Below, in pieces: positions 3,739 through 38,750 of a stretch of 63,937 nt of DNA. The stretch is taken from the IMG/VR virus record IMGVR_UViG_3300009507_000019, positions 1 through 63,937 of that record; one strand, written 5' to 3'. The first letter of the stretch is position 1. Each line of letters starts with the position of its first letter. Both the position numbers and the translations under genes were made by a program. Origin of the DNA: a virus. The notes under the pieces are model-generated. The model did no database searches, was not told the origin of the DNA, and saw nothing but the letters and a program-made list of their open reading frames with translations.

Positions 3739-4099
3739 AGATACTCCGTGAAAATAAGACCTGACCGTTTTCGTAACCTCGAACCGGTCGACCGTTTTGG
3801 GTAATCACCGCAGTGAGATCCCGATTACTGTTGATATTATAATCCAATTCCTTGTCCAAGGCAAGCGCCGCGGACTTATAATTGTCATAACTTTTTACAT
3901 TGACAACACCGTCGCGACGTTGGAAGTGTAACTGAAACTTCTTCAGAGACTCTTCCTCGGTTGCATACTGGTAGTAGTCAGTCGCAAGTTCACTACAGAG
4001 ATCGAGGTTGACGCGTTTGACACGTCGTTCCCCCGTCTCATCAAGGATGTACCGACGGACTTCCGCCGGTATCTGATCATAACTATGGTATGTAGTCAT
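3731..4099 (-). CDS. Hypothetical protein, 122 aa
   Basis: Unrecognised, soluble, mixed charge. It is coupled on both sides: its ATG overlaps the DUF932 stop by one base (TAATG) and its 3' end overlaps the SpoT-like gene. An internal promoter-like sequence lies at 3836-3864 within its coding region. Confidence 0.6.
   Translation of the reverse strand: MTTYHSYDQIPAEVRRYILDETGERRVKRVNLDLCSELATDYYQYATEEESLKKFQLHFQRRDGVVNVKSYDNYKSAALALDKELDYNINSNRDLTAVITQNGRPVRGYENGQVLFSRSIYG
3836..3864 (-). promoter_or_regulatory. Internal sigma70-type promoter for the SpoT-like gene
   Basis: TTGCCT (3864-3859), 17 bases, TATAAT (3841-3836) inside the 122 aa gene, about 90 bases upstream of the SpoT-like ATG. 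The -35 matches the TTGCCT of the 5102-5130 promoter exactly. Confidence 0.5.
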
Positions 4100-5064
4100 T
4101 ATGCTACCTCCGCCATTTCAAGAGCAAGGTTCATCGCCTTGAGTTTCTTCGCTTGGTTTGAACCGAACCACGCAGACTGCATACGAGTGTCGTTTGAACG
4201 TCCCAACTCGTGGTCAGTCATGTACGTTACAGCGTTCACTGCGTTCCACCATGAACCCATCGCCATCTCTGCGCCAGGTTGTGTCTCCAGTACATCGAAC
4301 GTACGTTGTGCAGAACGAGACAGGTCAATGTAATCCATAACCGACTTCTCTTTCGCAGGGAAGATTGCGTTGAAGTACTGAATCAGATCTTCTGCCTTAG
4401 TCTTCTTCTTAGCGAGGAATCGTGCAGCTTCTTTATACTGATCAAACTTCTCGTGGGCAATACCCAACTGATCTTTAACTAACTGTGGATCAAACGCACG
4501 ACGGTGGTTGAGTGCAACTTCGTTCTTTGCGTTCGCACTAAGTGACATAGTCAAAGTGTTGTTACACACTACACGAATCGGAGTGAACCGTACGTTGATT
4601 GACTTACCGTACTGGTGAGGGTTAGAGAACAGAAGGTAAGAATCTACCTGATCTTCACCCAACACATTGAACGACTCGTTAACCTTCGCAAGTGCCCAAA
4701 CCATCTGACCACCCTTCAGAGAACCCGCAGTGTGCATTTCCATGTCACCCGCAAGACAGTACTCGTTGAAGAACTCGAACGCTTCGTGATTCTGGACTGG
4801 ATTCCAACCCTCACCCACAGACGGGGCAAGAACTTTGTTGTCAGTCGAACGGATCAACGCAGATGTGCCGGTGGCGATTAGATCGTCATCAGCAGGAGCA
4901 GCGTATGTTGGAACTTTTTTGACTTCCCAGTCACAACCTGCCTTCTCCATCATTTGACGGGGAGACAGATCTGCGGGAACACGTTCACCTAGACCATGCC
5001 AAGGCACCTCACCAACGTATGCCATTTGCGCTTGACCGTTTACCATTTCAATTTCATGACTCAT
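4099..5064 (-). CDS. DUF932 / phage-plasmid-like protein (TIGR03299 type)
   Basis: A 321 aa protein that begins with the family hallmark, including VPWHGLG at about residues 20-26, and continues with the typical QNHEAF, GG.MVWALA and VVCNNTL segments. The family is spread through phages and plasmids and has no settled function. It is the first gene of a transcript driven by the promoter at 5102-5130 and is followed by overlapping small genes down to the terminator at 3096. Confidence 0.8.
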   Translation of the reverse strand: MSHEIEMVNGQAQMAYVGEVPWHGLGERVPADLSPRQMMEKAGCDWEVKKVPTYAAPADDDLIATGTSALIRSTDNKVLAPSVGEGWNPVQNHEAFEFFNEYCLAGDMEMHTAGSLKGGQMVWALAKVNESFNVLGEDQVDSYLLFSNPHQYGKSINVRFTPIRVVCNNTLTMSLSANAKNEVALNHRRAFDPQLVKDQLGIAHEKFDQYKEAARFLAKKKTKAEDLIQYFNAIFPAKEKSVMDYIDLSRSAQRTFDVLETQPGAEMAMGSWWNAVNAVTYMTDHELGRSNDTRMQSAWFGSNQAKKLKAMNLALEMAEVA

Positions 5065-17060: not shown

Positions 17061-17984
17061 CTAGTTATTACGATATGCATATTCTACTGCTCTATCCGCT
17101 TCTACTTCAAGTGGACGATTAGTATACCAATTTCCGGTGTCAATGTCAAGCTGTCGACATAAATCCGCGATCTCACGTGCGGTGATTGGGTATCCACGAG
17201 TGATCGCTGTACCGGCAGTCGCGACCATAATTTGATACATCTTGTGATACCAACCTGTTTCTGAAATATACTGGTAATCTCTCGCCAGTGTTTTCGGAAA
17301 AAAAGGACAATCATGATAACTTGTCCATGTAAACTCTGTGTTGTTCATTGAGTTCTTCCGGTGTGCAACCACTGCCTTCTGTAACTCATCTGGTAGTCTA
17401 TCTAGGAAGTTTTTACCTTCCTTTTCTTTGTATGGGTGTTTACCTATGAGATAGTCCGCATCCACAGGTCGACCCTCGTTGCGCCATATGAAGTTGTATG
17501 CGTCCTCATACTTAGCGGGGACGTAATACATACGACTCAGATCCTTGGTCTGTTTATCACCTATCTCATTAAGTTCGGTGTTGAGTGCCCACCAGAACGC
17601 CTTGAGTTGATCCGACTCTACTTCTTCGCCCAGATTAAATACCAGTCGGAACTTGGGTTTATCCTCACGAGAACTCGCAGTACTATAACAGACAAAGTCC
17701 CAGTGTCCATAGTCCTCGACCAATCTGTCTTTCAACTTACCTGCGGGGATATCTATATCATCTACGTCTACTGCCGCCCACCCAGTCCAACACTCCACGT
17801 TCTTATTACTACGTGTAGTATCAACCGTGTACTTGGCAGGGCTGATCAATGGCGCAGTCGCCTTCGTATCCGGTTTGTCTGATAACATATACAACAGAGA
17901 CACGAACTCATCCCACGTCTCAAACGACATAGTCTTGTTCGTTTTGTTATCATAACGATTGCGGAATAAAGTTAGAGAGTACAT
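17061..17984 (-). CDS. AEP-type (PrimPol-like) DNA primase candidate
   Basis: A 307 aa protein. Residues 66-76 (GWAAVDVDDID) give an acidic hhDxD metal motif, followed by YSTASSREDKPKFRLVF, which resembles the SxxxxKxR-type motif II of archaeo-eukaryotic primases, and DLSRMYYVPA, like the third RepB/PrimPol motif. The C-terminal part is helical, as in primase helix-bundle domains. T4 uses a Toprim primase gp61; I see none in this window, so this may replace it as partner of gp41. Function is inferred from motifs and position. Confidence 0.6.
   Translation of the reverse strand: MYSLTLFRNRYDNKTNKTMSFETWDEFVSLLYMLSDKPDTKATAPLISPAKYTVDTTRSNKNVECWTGWAAVDVDDIDIPAGKLKDRLVEDYGHWDFVCYSTASSREDKPKFRLVFNLGEEVESDQLKAFWWALNTELNEIGDKQTKDLSRMYYVPAKYEDAYNFIWRNEGRPVDADYLIGKHPYKEKEGKNFLDRLPDELQKAVVAHRKNSMNNTEFTWTSYHDCPFFPKTLARDYQYISETGWYHKMYQIMVATAGTAITRGYPITAREIADLCRQLDIDTGNWYTNRPLEVEADRAVEYAYRNN
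17121..17149 (-). promoter_or_regulatory. Internal sigma70-type promoter upstream of the dehydrogenase-like/uvsX genes
   Basis: TTGACA (17149-17144), 17 bases, TATACT (17126-17121), inside the 3' end of the primase gene and about 60 bases before the ATG at 17051. Confidence 0.7.
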
Positions 17985-18553
17985 AACGCAATTTCATTCT
18001 TATACATTTGACCCTTCCATTCTTGATCGTAGGGAAATACCTGTATCGGTTTGTAATCAGTGTGTTTCAGTACGGTATGACGTACGGGTTTCTGATCCCA
18101 GTTATCAATCAGACATGCTTTGATACCTAGGTCTTGACACATAGTAGAGTCGAACTCCACTGCCCAAGGCTTATGATACCCGTCTATGAGAGCAAAGTCA
18201 AACCAATTCGTAAAGTTTTCTAACATATCATTCTGCACGTACTGAGTCTTACCTTTGATATGAGTAAACCGATTGCCATACACCTTGTTCATCTTGTCAA
18301 TCTGTTCGTAACGAAGTTTGGGATCGGGTACTTCTTTACCTAGGTTTTCTTCGATAGGGCCAATACAAACCAGATCCGCATCGGTGTACGTCTCCAGTTG
18401 GTAGGTCGTAGAATGTCCCCACAGGAAACCAATCTCCAATACCCGTTTGGGTTTGAAGTCTCGTTGTGCGGTTTGAAATGCCTCCATGATTTGGTCTGTG
18501 GGTGGCATGTAACCCCACCCGTCAGTAGGCCAAATTAAGTGGTCTAGATTCAT
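17972..18553 (-). CDS. Class I SAM methyltransferase-like protein
   Basis: A 193 aa Rossmann protein. [12 protein letters not shown] at about 38-49 is motif I of SAM-dependent methyltransferases, and [10 protein letters not shown] (about 118-127) resembles the post-strand-4 acidic motif of small-molecule or sugar methyltransferases. No DNA-methyltransferase catalytic motif (DPPY, NPPF or PCQ) is present, so it does not look like a partner for the EcoRI-type enzyme. Overlaps gp43 by 4 bases and the primase gene by 13. Confidence 0.6.
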
Positions 18554-28137: not shown

Positions 28138-28735
28138 GCGGTACTTCAATGTCTTTTAAAAATATTTGAATACATTTCCTAAAACGTTTGGTCTGTATCT
28201 CTGTAGACCTATGTGATACGTTTCGTATTGCGACTGCTCTGTTGTAACTGGGGGTTACTCTCTGTACTTCTTGTTTTTCGTTCTTGTACAGAAAGTCCCC
28301 ACCCCACTCTATATCCCAGTGACGATTAAGGTAGATGGTTATCGCTCCGGAACGGATTCGTGCATCATGAGGATCGCCGTGTTTGAAATCACTATGCCAT
28401 TCAATCCTAGACCCACCAGTCCAGACAAAGAATTGCATAGCCTCTCGGGTTTCAGGAATCCAATGAGGATATATCTTTTGTATATCATTCACGATGTTCT
28501 GCCACAACTCTGGATTACTCTCCCATATCTTATGTACTAGACAAAGGTTTTCATAACGTTCTGACATGGGATTCATAAAGTGTTTAGGTTTGTCTTTGGC
28601 CCATGCAAAGTTAGTTGTCCACACATGATCTGTAGAGTTCAGTAAATGATCACAATATCGAGATGCCGCGTCTGCGACTCGCGGAGAAAGAAACGCGTCA
28701 TGGTTCTTTACGTAATAATCGATTTGTTCACTCAT
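28112..28735 (-). CDS. 2OG-Fe(II) oxygenase, 207 aa
   Basis: The iron-binding triad appears as EWHSDF (His114, Asp116) and NVSHRST (His175), with GAITIYLN and GGDFLY strands typical of the P4H-like barrel and an Arg for 2-oxoglutarate shortly after. Third HxD-type oxygenase in this window. It overlaps gp46 by 8 bases and sits between gp46 and gp45, where marine T4-like phages often carry extra genes. Substrate unknown. Confidence 0.8.
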   Translation of the reverse strand: MSEQIDYYVKNHDAFLSPRVADAASRYCDHLLNSTDHVWTTNFAWAKDKPKHFMNPMSERYENLCLVHKIWESNPELWQNIVNDIQKIYPHWIPETREAMQFFVWTGGSRIEWHSDFKHGDPHDARIRSGAITIYLNRHWDIEWGGDFLYKNEKQEVQRVTPSYNRAVAIRNVSHRSTEIQTKRFRKCIQIFLKDIEVPLDNNADFC

Positions 28736-30437
28736 TTAATGAACTGAAGTTGCCCTTCTTGACAAACTCGATTTTATCTTCGAACTTACCGTCAAGCAAC
28801 TCTCCTTTGTGAGAGATTACATATGTATTAGTATCACCGTCCAATGTATCTAGGATACTAGTAAGATTGTCAATACCCTCTACGTCCAGAGAAGAGTCAA
28901 ACGTCTCATCAAGTATCAGTAGGTTGGTCGCCACAGAGTTCTTCATCTTCGCAACCTGTCTCCACGTAAACAATAACGCGAGGTCAATACGTTGTTTCTC
29001 GCCTTCAGAGAATGAGTCGTACGAGAACGCATCACGATGTCGTGACCGTATGGTCTCCTTGAACTGTTCATCTAAATTGAACGACACAAAGAAGTCTAGA
29101 ACCTGTAGGTATTTGTTGACCAACTGATTGATGACAGGGAGATACTCTTTCACAATCTTAGTCTTGATACCAGTGTCTTTCAACAACTCTGTGATAACCA
29201 TACTGTACGCAACCTGTTCAGCGAGATCTCCCTTGATCTCACGTAGTATTTCGCGATCATCATTCTGATTCATTAGAGTCTGACGTTCTTCTGCGATATC
29301 AGTGGTGGTCTCATCCTGTTTCGCTAGGTACTGTTGTATGTTGGTTATTTGTTTTTGTAACGTATCGATCTCTATCTGTTTTCGATCGTACTCAGATACC
29401 AAGTCCTGTAACTTCTTTGTCTCCTCGACTACGCCCACCATTCGTTCGTTGAGTCTGGTGAGTTCTTCGGAGGCTTTGGATCTTGCGTCGACGAATCCGG
29501 AGTGTTTGGTTTCTGCTTCGGATATCTTTTTTTCTTTGAAGGTAGTTTCGATCCCCTGTTCACAGGTGGGACAATTGGAGTTATCTTCATAGAACTTCTT
29601 CTCCTTCTCCAGATCCTTCAGTTTAGAGTTGAAGGTCTTATCGTATTGTTTAATCTGAATGATCAGACTATTACACGAGTCGTGTTCCATCTTGAGTTGA
29701 TCCAAACCACCCGCGGCGATTGGACGCATAGTAGATCGAATGTCACCAATCTGACTGGTCAGTGATTCAATGTCAGATAGTTTCTCTTCACGATTGTCAC
29801 GCTTGTTCTTCTCCAGACTCTCAACATACTTCTTCTGTGTCCGGATCTTGTACTCTAGGTTCTCTAGATCTGATTGGTTCGCACGTACCTTCTCTTTGAT
29901 GACAGAGAACTTCTCCTTGAGGATAATGTTCATCTTAGAGAATACGTTGATATCAAGCAGATCTTCGATCACCTCACGTCGATGGTTCGCAGGTAACTGC
30001 ATGAACGGCACAAACGAACTACTACCCAGTACAATGATCTGGTGAAAAGACTTGTGGTTTAGTTTCAGAATGTTTTGTTCAAGTACCTTCTGATACTCTT
30101 TACTATGAGAGTCTTGATTGATGACCTTGTCGTCTCGCCAGATCTCAAACTTAGTTGGTTTGATACCACGCACAACCTTGTACTCACAACCAAGTGCGTT
30201 GAACTCTACCTCAACATGACAGTTCTTGTTATTGACACTATTGACCAGTTGACCCTTAGATACGGATCGGTGTGCCTTACCAAACAATGCGAAAGATAGT
30301 GCGTCCAACATAGTAGACTTACCCGCACCATTCTGACCCACTACTAGAGTAGAAGCAGATTTGTTGAGATCTATTTGAGTGAACGAATCACCAGTACTAA
30401 GAAAGTTCTTGTACTTTAACGATTTGAATATAATCAT
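28728..30437 (-). CDS. 46: Recombination exonuclease subunit gp46 (SbcC/Rad50 type)
   Basis: A 569 aa SMC-like ATPase. Walker A GQNGAGKS lies at 34-41, two coiled-coil arms flank a zinc hook CPTCEQG at about residue 289, and the C-terminal half has the signature FSEGEKQRIDLALLF and Walker B LLILDETFDSSLD. With gp47 it resects DNA ends for recombination-dependent replication and degrades host DNA. Four-base overlap with gp47. Confidence 0.95.
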   Translation of the reverse strand: MIIFKSLKYKNFLSTGDSFTQIDLNKSASTLVVGQNGAGKSTMLDALSFALFGKAHRSVSKGQLVNSVNNKNCHVEVEFNALGCEYKVVRGIKPTKFEIWRDDKVINQDSHSKEYQKVLEQNILKLNHKSFHQIIVLGSSSFVPFMQLPANHRREVIEDLLDINVFSKMNIILKEKFSVIKEKVRANQSDLENLEYKIRTQKKYVESLEKNKRDNREEKLSDIESLTSQIGDIRSTMRPIAAGGLDQLKMEHDSCNSLIIQIKQYDKTFNSKLKDLEKEKKFYEDNSNCPTCEQGIETTFKEKKISEAETKHSGFVDARSKASEELTRLNERMVGVVEETKKLQDLVSEYDRKQIEIDTLQKQITNIQQYLAKQDETTTDIAEERQTLMNQNDDREILREIKGDLAEQVAYSMVITELLKDTGIKTKIVKEYLPVINQLVNKYLQVLDFFVSFNLDEQFKETIRSRHRDAFSYDSFSEGEKQRIDLALLFTWRQVAKMKNSVATNLLILDETFDSSLDVEGIDNLTSILDTLDGDTNTYVISHKGELLDGKFEDKIEFVKKGNFSSLNE

Positions 30438-31495
30438 ACGAGTTCGAGCGTCTGCGCCTCTACCATGAGTTCACGCACCATCCCCTTGATGGTGTCTTTG
30501 TTTAACGGTGTATCTACCGCATTTATATAAGTATACAACAAATCTTCCGTACTGTCAACTGATATTTGATTGTCACTCACAGAACCACCAGTAAACTCTT
30601 CAAAGTTCTCTGCGATCTTGAGTTCGTGTATCTTACGAGAGTTGATCCTATCTACGAATGCATCGAACAACTTAGGATCAGACTTATTGACCACGATCAA
30701 CTTGACGAACTTATCGTCTAGGTGTCGTATGTCTGTAAGCATAGGATTCTTCTCTTGATCGTTGTAGTAGATCTTCTCGAACAATCTCTCGGTGTTGACT
30801 ACGGGGGTGACCTCACGAGTGTCTGTGTCTAGGATGTGGAAGTGCTTGGGGTCATGTGCATCACTCCAGAAGAACTCCATCTGAGAACCAAGGTAGTGTA
30901 TGTTACCACTCTGTGACTTGGTGTGGAAGTGTCCGGAGAGAACCAAATCAAAACGATTGAATGCAGATGCCCTCATACCATGAGTACAGGGAATACCCGC
31001 AGACATCTCGAACCCTTCTAACTCAAGGTGTGCACCAATCACATCTGCCTTACAACCCTGAATGAACTTCATACACTCATCATTGTTGGTCTCGTTGATC
31101 CAAGGTATCAGACCCATAGGCATACCATCATAGTCAACCACCATTGGTTTCTCGATGATACGTACCTCTTCCATGTAGTGACCTAACAGTTCTTTGAGTG
31201 CACTCAGGTCATTAGTATTCTTGTAGAACACGTCATGGTTGCCGGGAATGATATCCATGTGGATCTTGTACTCACGCAACTTCTCCAAAAAGATCTTCCG
31301 GTTATGTTCCAACGCACGGAAGTTGATGAACTTACGGTTGTCGTAGTAGTCACCAAGGTGTAGTATCTTTGTGATACCGTTCTCACGTAGGTACGGGAAG
31401 AACACATCACGATAGAAACGTTCTTGATAGTCCATCATCACGTCAGATGAGTTACGGATACCACAGTGAGTGTCATTCAGTATTGCAATCTTCAT
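30434..31495 (-). CDS. 47: Recombination nuclease subunit gp47 (SbcD/Mre11 type)
   Basis: A 353 aa metallophosphoesterase nuclease. Motifs are DTHCG (Asp8, His10), HLGDYYD (around Asp49), IPGNHDVF (Asn-His near 85) and the later GHFHTK. It partners gp46. An internal promoter at 30530-30558 lies near its 3' end. Confidence 0.95.
   Translation of the reverse strand: MKIAILNDTHCGIRNSSDVMMDYQERFYRDVFFPYLRENGITKILHLGDYYDNRKFINFRALEHNRKIFLEKLREYKIHMDIIPGNHDVFYKNTNDLSALKELLGHYMEEVRIIEKPMVVDYDGMPMGLIPWINETNNDECMKFIQGCKADVIGAHLELEGFEMSAGIPCTHGMRASAFNRFDLVLSGHFHTKSQSGNIHYLGSQMEFFWSDAHDPKHFHILDTDTREVTPVVNTERLFEKIYYNDQEKNPMLTDIRHLDDKFVKLIVVNKSDPKLFDAFVDRINSRKIHELKIAENFEEFTGGSVSDNQISVDSTEDLLYTYINAVDTPLNKDTIKGMVRELMVEAQTLELV
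30530..30558 (-). promoter_or_regulatory. Internal promoter for gp46
   Basis: TTGACA (30558-30553), 17 bases, TATACT (30535-30530), within gp47 and about 90 bases upstream of the gp46 ATG. Confidence 0.7.
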
Positions 31496-35839: not shown

Positions 35840-35868
35840 TTGACTTTGCAGGCTACATAATGTATAAT
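35840..35868 (+). promoter_or_regulatory. Strong plus-strand sigma70-type promoter
   Basis: TTGACT (35840-35845), 17 bases, TATAAT (35863-35868). It is the only clear plus-strand promoter and opens the islet with the EcoRI-type gene. Confidence 0.78.
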
Positions 35869-35892: not shown

Positions 35893-37023
35893 ATGATACT
35901 AACACACACAGACGCGTTATACGCTGCAAATGCATTCGAGGAGTTCTTCGGTAGTATCGAAAGAATCGACGAATACATGCGTATGGTAAAGATGGAGAGG
36001 ATGGCAGAGTTTCCTCCCGCATTGCCTGGCATGGGCCCTGAAGAAGATCTCTTCAACAACTTCGATATCCATCCGTCTGAGATGGAGTTTACTATCATTG
36101 ACACTGCGTCATACAAGTTCATGAACTACATGGAGATCGTCACCTCTGCCCCTGTAGAGAAGTCAATCCCCGGCAAGACCATGAAGTGGATAATCAAAGA
36201 GAAGAACACCGACATGGTTGCGGGTATGATTCGACTCGGTTCTCCTACCATTAATAGTAAACCACGCAACGACTGGTTGGGTAATCCCCTCGACAGTCTA
36301 AACCCTAAGATCATGGAGAGGTTCAACAACTCTGCAATCATGGGGTTCAACATCGTACCTACACAACCATTTGGATTTAACTATCTGGGTGGTAAGTTAC
36401 TGGCTGCAATCTGTTGCAGTCACTTTACACGTGATGCACTCAACAAGAAGTATGATTCTAACTTCTGTATGTTTGAGACCACATCACTATATGGTTCAAC
36501 AAAGTCTGCCTCGCAGTATGATGGTATGAAACCATTTCTGCGATTCAACGGTTTGACAGACTCAAACTTCTTGCCACTAATCAATGACAACACTTTCCGC
36601 AGACTGAGTGATTGGTTCATTGATAAGAACGGTGGTGAACCCTTGGTTCCTGTGGATGCATCCTCTCGCAAACTCAAGACACAGACCAAGATGGCATCGA
36701 TCATCAAAGCCTCTCTCAAAGTTCATGATGATGTTGCCTATAAGAAGTTCTGTCAAACCTACGATAATGCAAAGGATCTGACTGAACGAAAACGTTCTTT
36801 CGTATCCACGTATGGTTATGATAATGTACCTCAGTATCTAAACCTCGAAACAGATACATTGATCAAGAAAGAAAACTACGACAGGTTCTCTCTTGAGAAT
36901 GTTACTACATGGTGGAAGAAGAACGCCACCAAACGTTACGACAAACTAAAATCTGAAGGTCGGTTGAGACGTACCGTAGAAACTTGGAACGTCAACGCAG
37001 ATGATATCGATATAATTAGGTGA
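35893..37023 (+). CDS. DUF4338 / DruA-like protein
   Basis: A 376 aa protein. Segments VAGMIRLGSPTINSKPRNDWLG, FNNSAIMGFNIVPTQPFGFN and FCMFETTSLYGSTKSASQYDG follow the DUF4338 order (G-x-l-x-s-P...R-D-x-x-G; N-x-R/A-x-l-x-x-P; ETx...Gt.Y), the family that includes DruA of the Druantia defence system and many phage and transposon proteins. Biochemical function is unknown. A GATGAGG ribosome-binding site precedes the ATG. Assignment is by eye and needs a profile search. Confidence 0.5.
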   Translation: MILTHTDALYAANAFEEFFGSIERIDEYMRMVKMERMAEFPPALPGMGPEEDLFNNFDIHPSEMEFTIIDTASYKFMNYMEIVTSAPVEKSIPGKTMKWIIKEKNTDMVAGMIRLGSPTINSKPRNDWLGNPLDSLNPKIMERFNNSAIMGFNIVPTQPFGFNYLGGKLLAAICCSHFTRDALNKKYDSNFCMFETTSLYGSTKSASQYDGMKPFLRFNGLTDSNFLPLINDNTFRRLSDWFIDKNGGEPLVPVDASSRKLKTQTKMASIIKASLKVHDDVAYKKFCQTYDNAKDLTERKRSFVSTYGYDNVPQYLNLETDTLIKKENYDRFSLENVTTWWKKNATKRYDKLKSEGRLRRTVETWNVNADDIDIIR

Positions 37024-37029
37024 TATATT

Positions 37030-37413
37030 ATGATTACAGATTTCTGTGTTATATGCGGAACAAAAGATAATCTTCATAACCATCATATTGTTTGTAAGAA
37101 AAGTGAACTAAAACCAATATCTGGTGATTACGATCATTATACAAACCTCCTGACTCTTTGTGGAGAACATCATGGATGGATTCATGGTGTTAAACCTAAC
37201 AGGTTTAATAACTGGTCTGAACTAAAAAAACTAGGAATAGAGAGTGCAAAAAGAAGAGGAGTCAAGTTTGGCGCACCAAGAAAAATAGACGATAAAAAGG
37301 TTCATGACTTATGGTTATCGGGAAGGAGTGCTATAGAAATTGCTGAAGAGTTAGGTGTCGCTCGCGCAAGTGTGTATAGGTATTTGTCTTTATTCAAAAA
37401 ACAAGGATTTTAA
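37030..37413 (+). CDS. HNH endonuclease fused to a resolvase-type helix-turn-helix
   Basis: A 127 aa protein. The nuclease part has CVIC (6-9), HNHHIV (His18, His19), Asn39 and CGEHH (44-48), the zinc-stabilised HNH fold seen in phage homing endonucleases. After KRRGVKFGAPRKI comes a helix-turn-helix (89-117, VHDLWLSGRSAIEIAEELGVARASVYRYL) of the HTH_7 type that ends serine recombinases. The gene is visibly richer in A and in AAA/AGA/ATA codons than both neighbours, so it is probably a mobile insertion. Confidence 0.8.
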   Translation: MITDFCVICGTKDNLHNHHIVCKKSELKPISGDYDHYTNLLTLCGEHHGWIHGVKPNRFNNWSELKKLGIESAKRRGVKFGAPRKIDDKKVHDLWLSGRSAIEIAEELGVARASVYRYLSLFKKQGF

Positions 37414-37415
37414 AA

Positions 37416-38081
37416 ATGGCACAGTCGGATAGGTTAAGAGAGATACAGAGAAACTCGGGGGGTGGTAAGACCACCTACGCTGAGGGTGAGAAGACCGAGA
37501 CTAAGGTTGCGGATGCAGTCCAACATGTTATGAAAACATTGAAGAAGAAGTATCCGGATCTAGAGTTTGATCACATGAAGAGACATCCCAAGCGTATGTT
37601 CTCCGAATCTATTGGTGCGACAGACTGGATGCCTTCCAATGAAAAATCTTTTGTGAATCCAGACGGTGGTACCATATGGGTCAAAAAGGTCTACAATGAT
37701 GGAGCTACATGGTACCCTATCCTCACCTCAGAAGCAAAGAAACAAGGTACTAATGACAGACTGATTAAAGAGGGTATGAAGAGACAGGCACAGGGCAATG
37801 CGATTGAACGTGCGTACAAGAACATCGAAGAGTTTAGATGTCTGTATGAGAGATACAATTGGTTCCCATACTTCATTTTTTGTGAGGGGTGTGACTTTGA
37901 CAAAGGATCTTCTATCCTTGACCGTATGGATGCAATGACACGTTACCGACCTAGGAATACTACCTATCTCTTCGAACGACACCAACTGGTGTCCCTGTAC
38001 ATCCGCCCAGAAGGATTCAGGCCCGAGTTTATATATAACACCATGCTGGATGCAGCCGAAAAAATACTAACCCAAATATAA
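37416..38081 (+). CDS. EcoRI-family type II restriction endonuclease
   Basis: A 221 aa protein that follows EcoRI through its catalytic core. NPDGG (Asp83, equivalent to EcoRI Asp91), SEAK (Glu106 and Lys108, equivalent to Glu111 and Lys113), GNAIER (127-132, equivalent to 140-145, the EcoRI segment that reads GAATTC), then FPYFIFCEG and SILDRMDAMTR. It is about 55 residues shorter than EcoRI (277 aa). No DNA methyltransferase lies nearby. It should cut double-stranded DNA, most likely at GAATTC. Activity is inferred from motifs. Confidence 0.8.
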   Translation: MAQSDRLREIQRNSGGGKTTYAEGEKTETKVADAVQHVMKTLKKKYPDLEFDHMKRHPKRMFSESIGATDWMPSNEKSFVNPDGGTIWVKKVYNDGATWYPILTSEAKKQGTNDRLIKEGMKRQAQGNAIERAYKNIEEFRCLYERYNWFPYFIFCEGCDFDKGSSILDRMDAMTRYRPRNTTYLFERHQLVSLYIRPEGFRPEFIYNTMLDAAEKILTQI

Positions 38082-38090
38082 GGAAAACCA

Positions 38091-38750
38091 TTGAAAGTAA
38101 AATTGGTAAGTCACTCACAAGCACCAGACTTTAACGAGTCTGCATTAGATCTAGTGGCATATTGTGCACGTGTATCTAACCCGTCTAATCAGAACAACAA
38201 AGAGACGAACGAGAAACTGGTAAAGTATCTCATGAAACATAAACACTGGTCTCCTCTAGAGATGGTTAGTGTCTGTCTGGAAGTAGAAACGACACGAGAT
38301 ATCGCACGTCAGTTGTTGCGCCATCGTAGTTTTAGTTTCCAAGAGTTCAGTCAACGTTATGCGGATCCGTTAAAAGACTTAGAGATGGTACCTCGCGAAG
38401 CACGATTTCAAGATCCAAAGAACCGACAGAATAGTATACCTATTGATCAAGATGACGAATCTCAAAGAAGGATCAATGAAGATTTTCGGATGAAACAGAT
38501 GAAACTTATTCATGAGTCCAAACAGGTTTACAACTGGGCAATCGATAATGGTATTGCAAAGGAACAGGCACGTGCTGTTCTACCAGAGGGTAATACTGTG
38601 TCTAGGTTATATGTGAATGGAACGTTACGGTCGTGGATACACTACATTGAGTTACGTAGTGCGAACGGCACACAGTTAGAACACATAGACCTCGCAATCG
38701 AAGTTGGACGTGTGATCGCTAAAATCTTCCCTTTAACCCCACAGGATTGA
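38091..38750 (+). CDS. thyX: Flavin-dependent thymidylate synthase ThyX
   Basis: A 219 aa enzyme that makes dTMP from dUMP with methylene-tetrahydrofolate and FAD. The ThyX motif is seen as RHRSFSFQEFSQRY at 77-90. The start is a TTG at 38091 with AAGGAAAA about 8 bases upstream; no ATG or GTG gives the normal N-terminus. It supplies thymidylate for phage DNA. It closes the plus-strand islet and is common in marine phages. Confidence 0.92.
   Translation: MKVKLVSHSQAPDFNESALDLVAYCARVSNPSNQNNKETNEKLVKYLMKHKHWSPLEMVSVCLEVETTRDIARQLLRHRSFSFQEFSQRYADPLKDLEMVPREARFQDPKNRQNSIPIDQDDESQRRINEDFRMKQMKLIHESKQVYNWAIDNGIAKEQARAVLPEGNTVSRLYVNGTLRSWIHYIELRSANGTQLEHIDLAIEVGRVIAKIFPLTPQD

Follow-up and report, generated by a model that had tools for sequence, protein, structure and literature searches.

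The DNA analyzed here (the window, i.e., the whole stretch of 63,937 nucleotides of the IMG/VR virus record IMGVR_UViG_3300009507_000019) belongs to a marine T4-like phage and harbors a gene coding for an EcoRI-like restriction endonuclease, whose position and surroundings are reported in Table 1. The product matches the Pfam family PF02963 (EcoRI) with E=2e-18 and 66.8 bits (cutoff 22), and a phmmer search against PDB retrieved EcoRI itself (1ckq, E=1.6e-13, residues 3-173). In the alignment, PD91...E111-A-K113 of EcoRI correspond to P82-D83...E106-A-K108 of the phage enzyme, and EcoRI residues 140-145 to its GNAIER segment. All of these residues are invariant in 34 phage and bacterial homologues, with the only exception of the one between E and K, which varies. 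An AlphaFold model built with the 34 homologues as input reached a predicted local distance difference test (pLDDT) score of 84.5, and its comparison with PDB through Foldseek disclosed five significant folds, all of them EcoRI (best E=6.8e-16, TMq 0.72). The ratio of nonsynonymous to synonymous substitution rates (dN/dS) between clade members is about 0.12-0.14, revealing that the gene is under purifying selection. The product is thus confirmed as an EcoRI-family PD-(D/E)XK endonuclease with an intact active site. A preliminary description of this DNA had placed the catalytic and GNAIER residues in the EcoRI order and had assigned the genome to a T4-like phage; both statements were upheld, and the structural overlay on EcoRI that it had proposed as a check gave a match.

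Table 1. Coordinates of the endonuclease gene and of the other features of the window.
Feature	Position	Strand	Remarks
EcoRI-family endonuclease, 221 amino acids	37416-38081	+	ATG start; catalytic D83, E106, K108; GNAIER 127-132
Whole window, RAATTY absent	1-63937		Site counts
HNH + helix-turn-helix gene	37030-37413	+	Directly upstream of the endonuclease gene
phrog_19197 gene, conserved left neighbour	35893-37023	+	Present also in relatives without the endonuclease gene
ThyX thymidylate synthase	38091-38750	+	Begins 9 bp past the endonuclease gene
Sigma-70-like promoter match TTGACT-17-TATAAT	35840-35868	+	Consensus match only; before the + strand gene group

The window is devoid of the sequence RAATTY, that is, of AATT preceded by a purine and followed by a pyrimidine (AAATTC, AAATTT, GAATTC, and GAATTT). 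A count of all 16 NAATTN contexts gave zero for each of these four forms and 7-17 for each of the other 12. Synonymous codon shuffling within the window genes predicts 109.9 +/- 7.4 RAATTY sites in 63.9 kb, and this is the zero with the highest expectation among all the degenerate palindromic 6-mers tested. GANTC has hundreds of sites. The absence is also visible at the codon level, where all the Glu-Phe and Lys-Phe dipeptides (127/127) use GAG/AAG and never GAA/AAA; GAA is the commoner Glu codon, yet it never precedes Phe. Avoidance of the strict GAATTC alone is ruled out, since AAATTT, AAATTC, and GAATTT are absent to the same degree. It had been supposed that the phage genome must either lack or protect the site of the enzyme, and the counts settle this point in favor of the former, neither GAATTC nor any other RAATTY form being present. 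The site that the counts point to is the relaxed RAATTY and not the strict GAATTC.

The same absence was observed in all the contigs carrying the endonuclease gene (15/15, 223 kb in total; the contigs share 70-100% protein identity and partly overlap), as well as in three sister contigs representing genome parts beyond the window (G030, G031, and G032, with 0 RAATTY against 90, 60, and 70 expected, respectively). Close relatives without the gene, on the other hand, contain RAATTY at a density of 0.8-1.5 per kb: those retrieved via phrog_19197 (84-92% identical), together with phage C48C1, have 204 sites in 194 kb, and the whole contigs of relatives without the gene have 211 in 144 kb, 92 in 122 kb, 45 in 60 kb, 42 in 40 kb, and 22 in 16 kb. 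Among the 160 loci found through the genes at both window ends, just 14 lack RAATTY entirely, 10 of which belong to the clade of the window and four to a clade almost without AATT; in the remaining 146, RAATTY accounts for 26% of the AATT sites. A comparison with relatives without the gene, made site by site and of limited value since third positions are too diverged, showed that 36 of the 88 aligned RAATTY sites were replaced via synonymous codons.

A second phage clade (contigs L071-L073) encodes an enzyme 43-44% identical to that of the window, whose gene is immediately followed by that of a small N6-type methyltransferase. In these contigs, RAATTY is reduced to about a third of the expectation (25/73 and 35/100 observed/expected, i.e., an approximately 3-fold depletion), with YAATTR and the mixed contexts near expectation; RAATTY represents 10-17% of the AATT sites in the nearest kin of this clade (80-100% nucleotide identity) and about 18-32% in the next relatives. 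With this clade, RAATTY is tied to such an enzyme for a second time and independently. Almost all the bacterial homologues with the Q-A-Q/R-GNAIER motif adjoin a DPPY or NPPF methyltransferase. In the tree of the homologues (n=40), whose branches are long and whose root is not secure, the lone phage enzymes fall on one side of a branch, beside the phage enzymes with a methyltransferase.

More distant homologues exist in two cultured cyanophages, S-CREM2 (gp11) and S-RIM2 (SWTG_00030), whose proteins are EcoRI-like and keep GNAIER; the former is 27% identical to the phage enzyme, and the latter was found by fold and through S-CREM2. They differ from the phage enzyme in being shorter (about 180-190 amino acids), in having a D12 or "DNA adenine methylase" gene at most three genes away, and in that no selective loss of RAATTY was seen in S-CREM2 or S-RIM2. 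The S-RIM2 gene (L400:3998-4537, corresponding to NC_020859 39820-40359) is annotated as "hypothetical", keeps PDGG as well as GNAIER, and occurs in 64 records of S-RIM2-type cyanophages, where the second gene downstream codes for a D12 DNA methyltransferase. This gene and the D12 methyltransferase offer a cultured comparison system.

No methyltransferase adjoins the phage endonuclease, in contrast to type II restriction-modification (R-M) systems or to viral systems of the chlorovirus type. Pfam scans of the larger non-structural proteins of the window did not find any DNA methyltransferase, the only match of the methyltransferase type being a weak one to Methyltransf_24 at 17972-18553. Similarly, PF02086, PF01555, and PF00145 gave zero matches in the window, in contig G002, and in the sister contigs G030-G032, and the motif [DNS]PP[YFW] is present in no open reading frame of at least 120 amino acids of the window or of G030-G032. 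Since G030 extends 42 kb past the left end of the window, the two cover about 106 kb of a genome that is incomplete and whose full size can be judged from a relative of 144-156 kb. Within this coverage, the claim that the enzyme has no partner methyltransferase holds. Overall, the preliminary interpretation is supported, in that the enzyme has the EcoRI fold and an intact active site, and the parts of the genome seen disclosed no cognate methyltransferase.

Regarding the neighbourhood, the endonuclease gene is fixed behind phrog_19197 within its clade, and thyX adjoins it in most of the contigs carrying it. The HNH gene is probably a separate (mobile) insertion, because it is missing at the same place in relatives that keep the endonuclease gene (L002, L003, and L011-L014). 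Contig L018 is closely related to the clade, with 97% identity in the neighbour gene and 0 RAATTY in 5 kb; before the contig ends, a different, ParB-like gene (3965-4953) occupies the place of the endonuclease. The presence of a strong host-type promoter leading to early expression, as previously proposed, finds little support: the match covers 11 of the 12 consensus positions and lies upstream of a conserved gene located two genes before the endonuclease, and promoter-like matches of this kind are not enriched over shuffled sequence. Elsewhere in the window, T4-type SbcCD-like genes are located at 28728-31495, and two 2OG-Fe(II) oxygenase genes (PF13640; 12821-13312 and 28112-28735) are present, as in several T4-like cyanophages.

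It is known that Asn141, Ala142, and Arg145 of EcoRI, all within GNAIER, contact and distort the AATT core (PMC4081073). The star sites of EcoRI are N/AATTN, and the phage enzyme keeps the GNAIER segment and carries Q124 and Q126 where EcoRI has M137 and A139. Changes beside this segment (e.g., A138T) relax the choice of the outer bases by EcoRI, and the two Gln residues might explain the tolerance for R/Y. On the whole, it is likely that the lone phage endonuclease cuts unmethylated RAATTY, that it is tolerated by virtue of the genome-wide purge of the site, and that it can be used as a weapon. According to this model, any phage genome gaining a RAATTY site would be destroyed by the enzyme, and selection would thereby clear every such site without the need for a methyltransferase. 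Self and non-self would be told apart by the absence of the site, so that the enzyme would cut the chromosome of the host and the DNA of any co-infecting phage and leave that of its own phage whole; a genome without RAATTY would leave the enzyme free to attack both host and rival DNA. As to the target, the breakdown and reuse of host DNA is slightly favored because of the ThyX neighbour and of the T4-type SbcCD-like recombination nuclease genes; the exclusion of rivals is the main alternative, equally allowed by the RAATTY counts in relatives without the gene, and both might hold.

Some observations weigh against this model. The comparison of carriers with non-carriers depends on what is essentially a single lineage, with a nucleotide identity of about 71% to its relatives, which makes phylogeny a confounder; it reflects for the most part one evolutionary event, to which the second phage clade lends support. 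Near-total purges also occur without a known phage enzyme. CTGCAG (0 in the window against about 23 expected) is nearly absent in the whole phage group, and GACGTC and CTTAAG are near zero too, in all cases with or without the endonuclease gene, which suggests a shared host restriction pressure. In another T4-like group (L166, L168, L172, L290, and L291), AATT occurs 10 times against 367 expected, AGCT 8 against 151, and CGCG once against 64, and the parts of these phages that were seen disclosed no restriction gene. Moreover, the non-carrier relatives (L024-L035, L058, and L066) are poor in GTGCAC (5 against 55) and ACCGGT (2 against 39), both of which are common in the clade of the window; this hints at different host R-M systems, which could explain some of the differences between carrier and non-carrier lineages. 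Lastly, about 30% of the genome (if of about 150 kb) lies outside the contigs seen, and a methyltransferase could be encoded there.

The avoidance of host restriction sites is common in phages, and the purges of CTGCAG and GACGTC in this group, as well as that of AATT in a clade where no enzyme was seen, would fit a loss of RAATTY driven by the host, through an R-M system with the specificity of ApoI, the phage enzyme having another role or none. This explanation is considered unlikely: RAATTY is absent where the gene is present in one clade and depleted where the homologue is present in a second, unrelated one, the purged core is that read by the GNAIER family, and an active lone enzyme reading AATT would demand the same purge anyway. 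Of the palindromes that the window avoids, AAATTT and GAATTC show the closest tie to carriage of the gene. A general avoidance of palindromes was also rejected, in that several palindromes are avoided with and without the gene, which leaves the contrast peculiar to RAATTY unexplained. The genome is incomplete, and a methyltransferase adjoins both the phage homologue of 43% identity and almost every bacterial one, which might rather suggest an ordinary R-M pair whose second member lies in the part not covered; such an arrangement appears quite improbable, given that in nearly every other case a methyltransferase of this family is the neighbour of its enzyme and none was found in the window or in the contigs reaching 42 kb beyond it, and that a working methyltransferase would make a total loss of sites unnecessary, the phages having one retaining RAATTY. 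Even harder to sustain is the idea that the enzyme acts in homing or belongs, with the HNH gene directly upstream, to a mobile element. Phage HNH genes are indeed often mobile, but the contigs where the EcoRI-like gene stays in the same place without HNH speak against this reading; furthermore, EcoRI-fold enzymes read short palindromes, and the absence of RAATTY is genome-wide rather than confined to one insertion site.

The enzyme for which a role as a lone, RAATTY-cutting weapon is proposed shares with EcoRI the fold, the PD...ExK active site, and the GNAIER recognition segment; however, EcoRI has 277 amino acids and recognizes GAATTC, whereas the phage enzyme has 221, would recognize RAATTY, has no methyltransferase found, and is carried by a T4-like phage. 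The specificity of ApoI is R^AATTY, the same sequence proposed for the phage enzyme, but ApoI is a bacterial R-M enzyme. T4 breaks down host DNA with its own endonucleases and protects its DNA by cytosine modification. Its nucleases spare phage DNA and destroy host DNA, as the enzyme described here would; the self-mark is a base modification in T4 and would be the absence of a sequence here. PacI of Pseudomonas alcaligenes is a solitary restriction enzyme, explained by a host genome without its sites (PMC3488263). Like the phage enzyme, whose site is a predicted one, PacI is lone and tolerated since the genome of its carrier lacks the site; unlike it, PacI is an HNH enzyme acting in a cell on a rare 8-bp site, while the phage has purged a site that is degenerate, 6 bp long, and expected once in about 0.5 kb. 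Restriction enzymes accompanied by a methyltransferase are thought to serve host DNA degradation in chloroviruses (PMC7019647) and exclusion in marseilleviruses (PMC7253447). In these cases, too, a virus-encoded enzyme has been proposed to act against host or rival DNA, but it is guarded by an adjacent viral methyltransferase (an arrangement also found in the L071-L073 homologues, which resemble the chlorovirus systems in this respect), whereas none was found in the phage and the site itself is missing. The literature searched yielded no account of a phage restriction enzyme whose sole protection is the genome-wide removal of a frequent site. A solitary enzyme tolerated by site absence (PacI) and viral R-M weapons (chloroviruses) were already known.

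A restriction enzyme that lacks its methyltransferase is as a rule toxic, and most solitary cases are attributed to a broken gene or to pairing with a methyltransferase encoded far away. The phage lineage studied here appears to escape this toxicity through the removal of a frequent site from its DNA, a way of marking self and non-self unlike base modification. It is rather probable that a virulent phage lineage came by a stand-alone weapon through the loss of the methyltransferase, or without ever acquiring one, and through a rewriting of its whole genome without RAATTY, the absence of the site becoming a heritable self-mark of the clade; its members would be mutually immune, and hosts and non-carrier relatives would be cut. 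The specificity of the enzyme was predicted from genome statistics alone, and the same approach, i.e., pairing a lone phage nuclease with exactly the site that is missing, could reveal other weapons and their targets in metagenomes.
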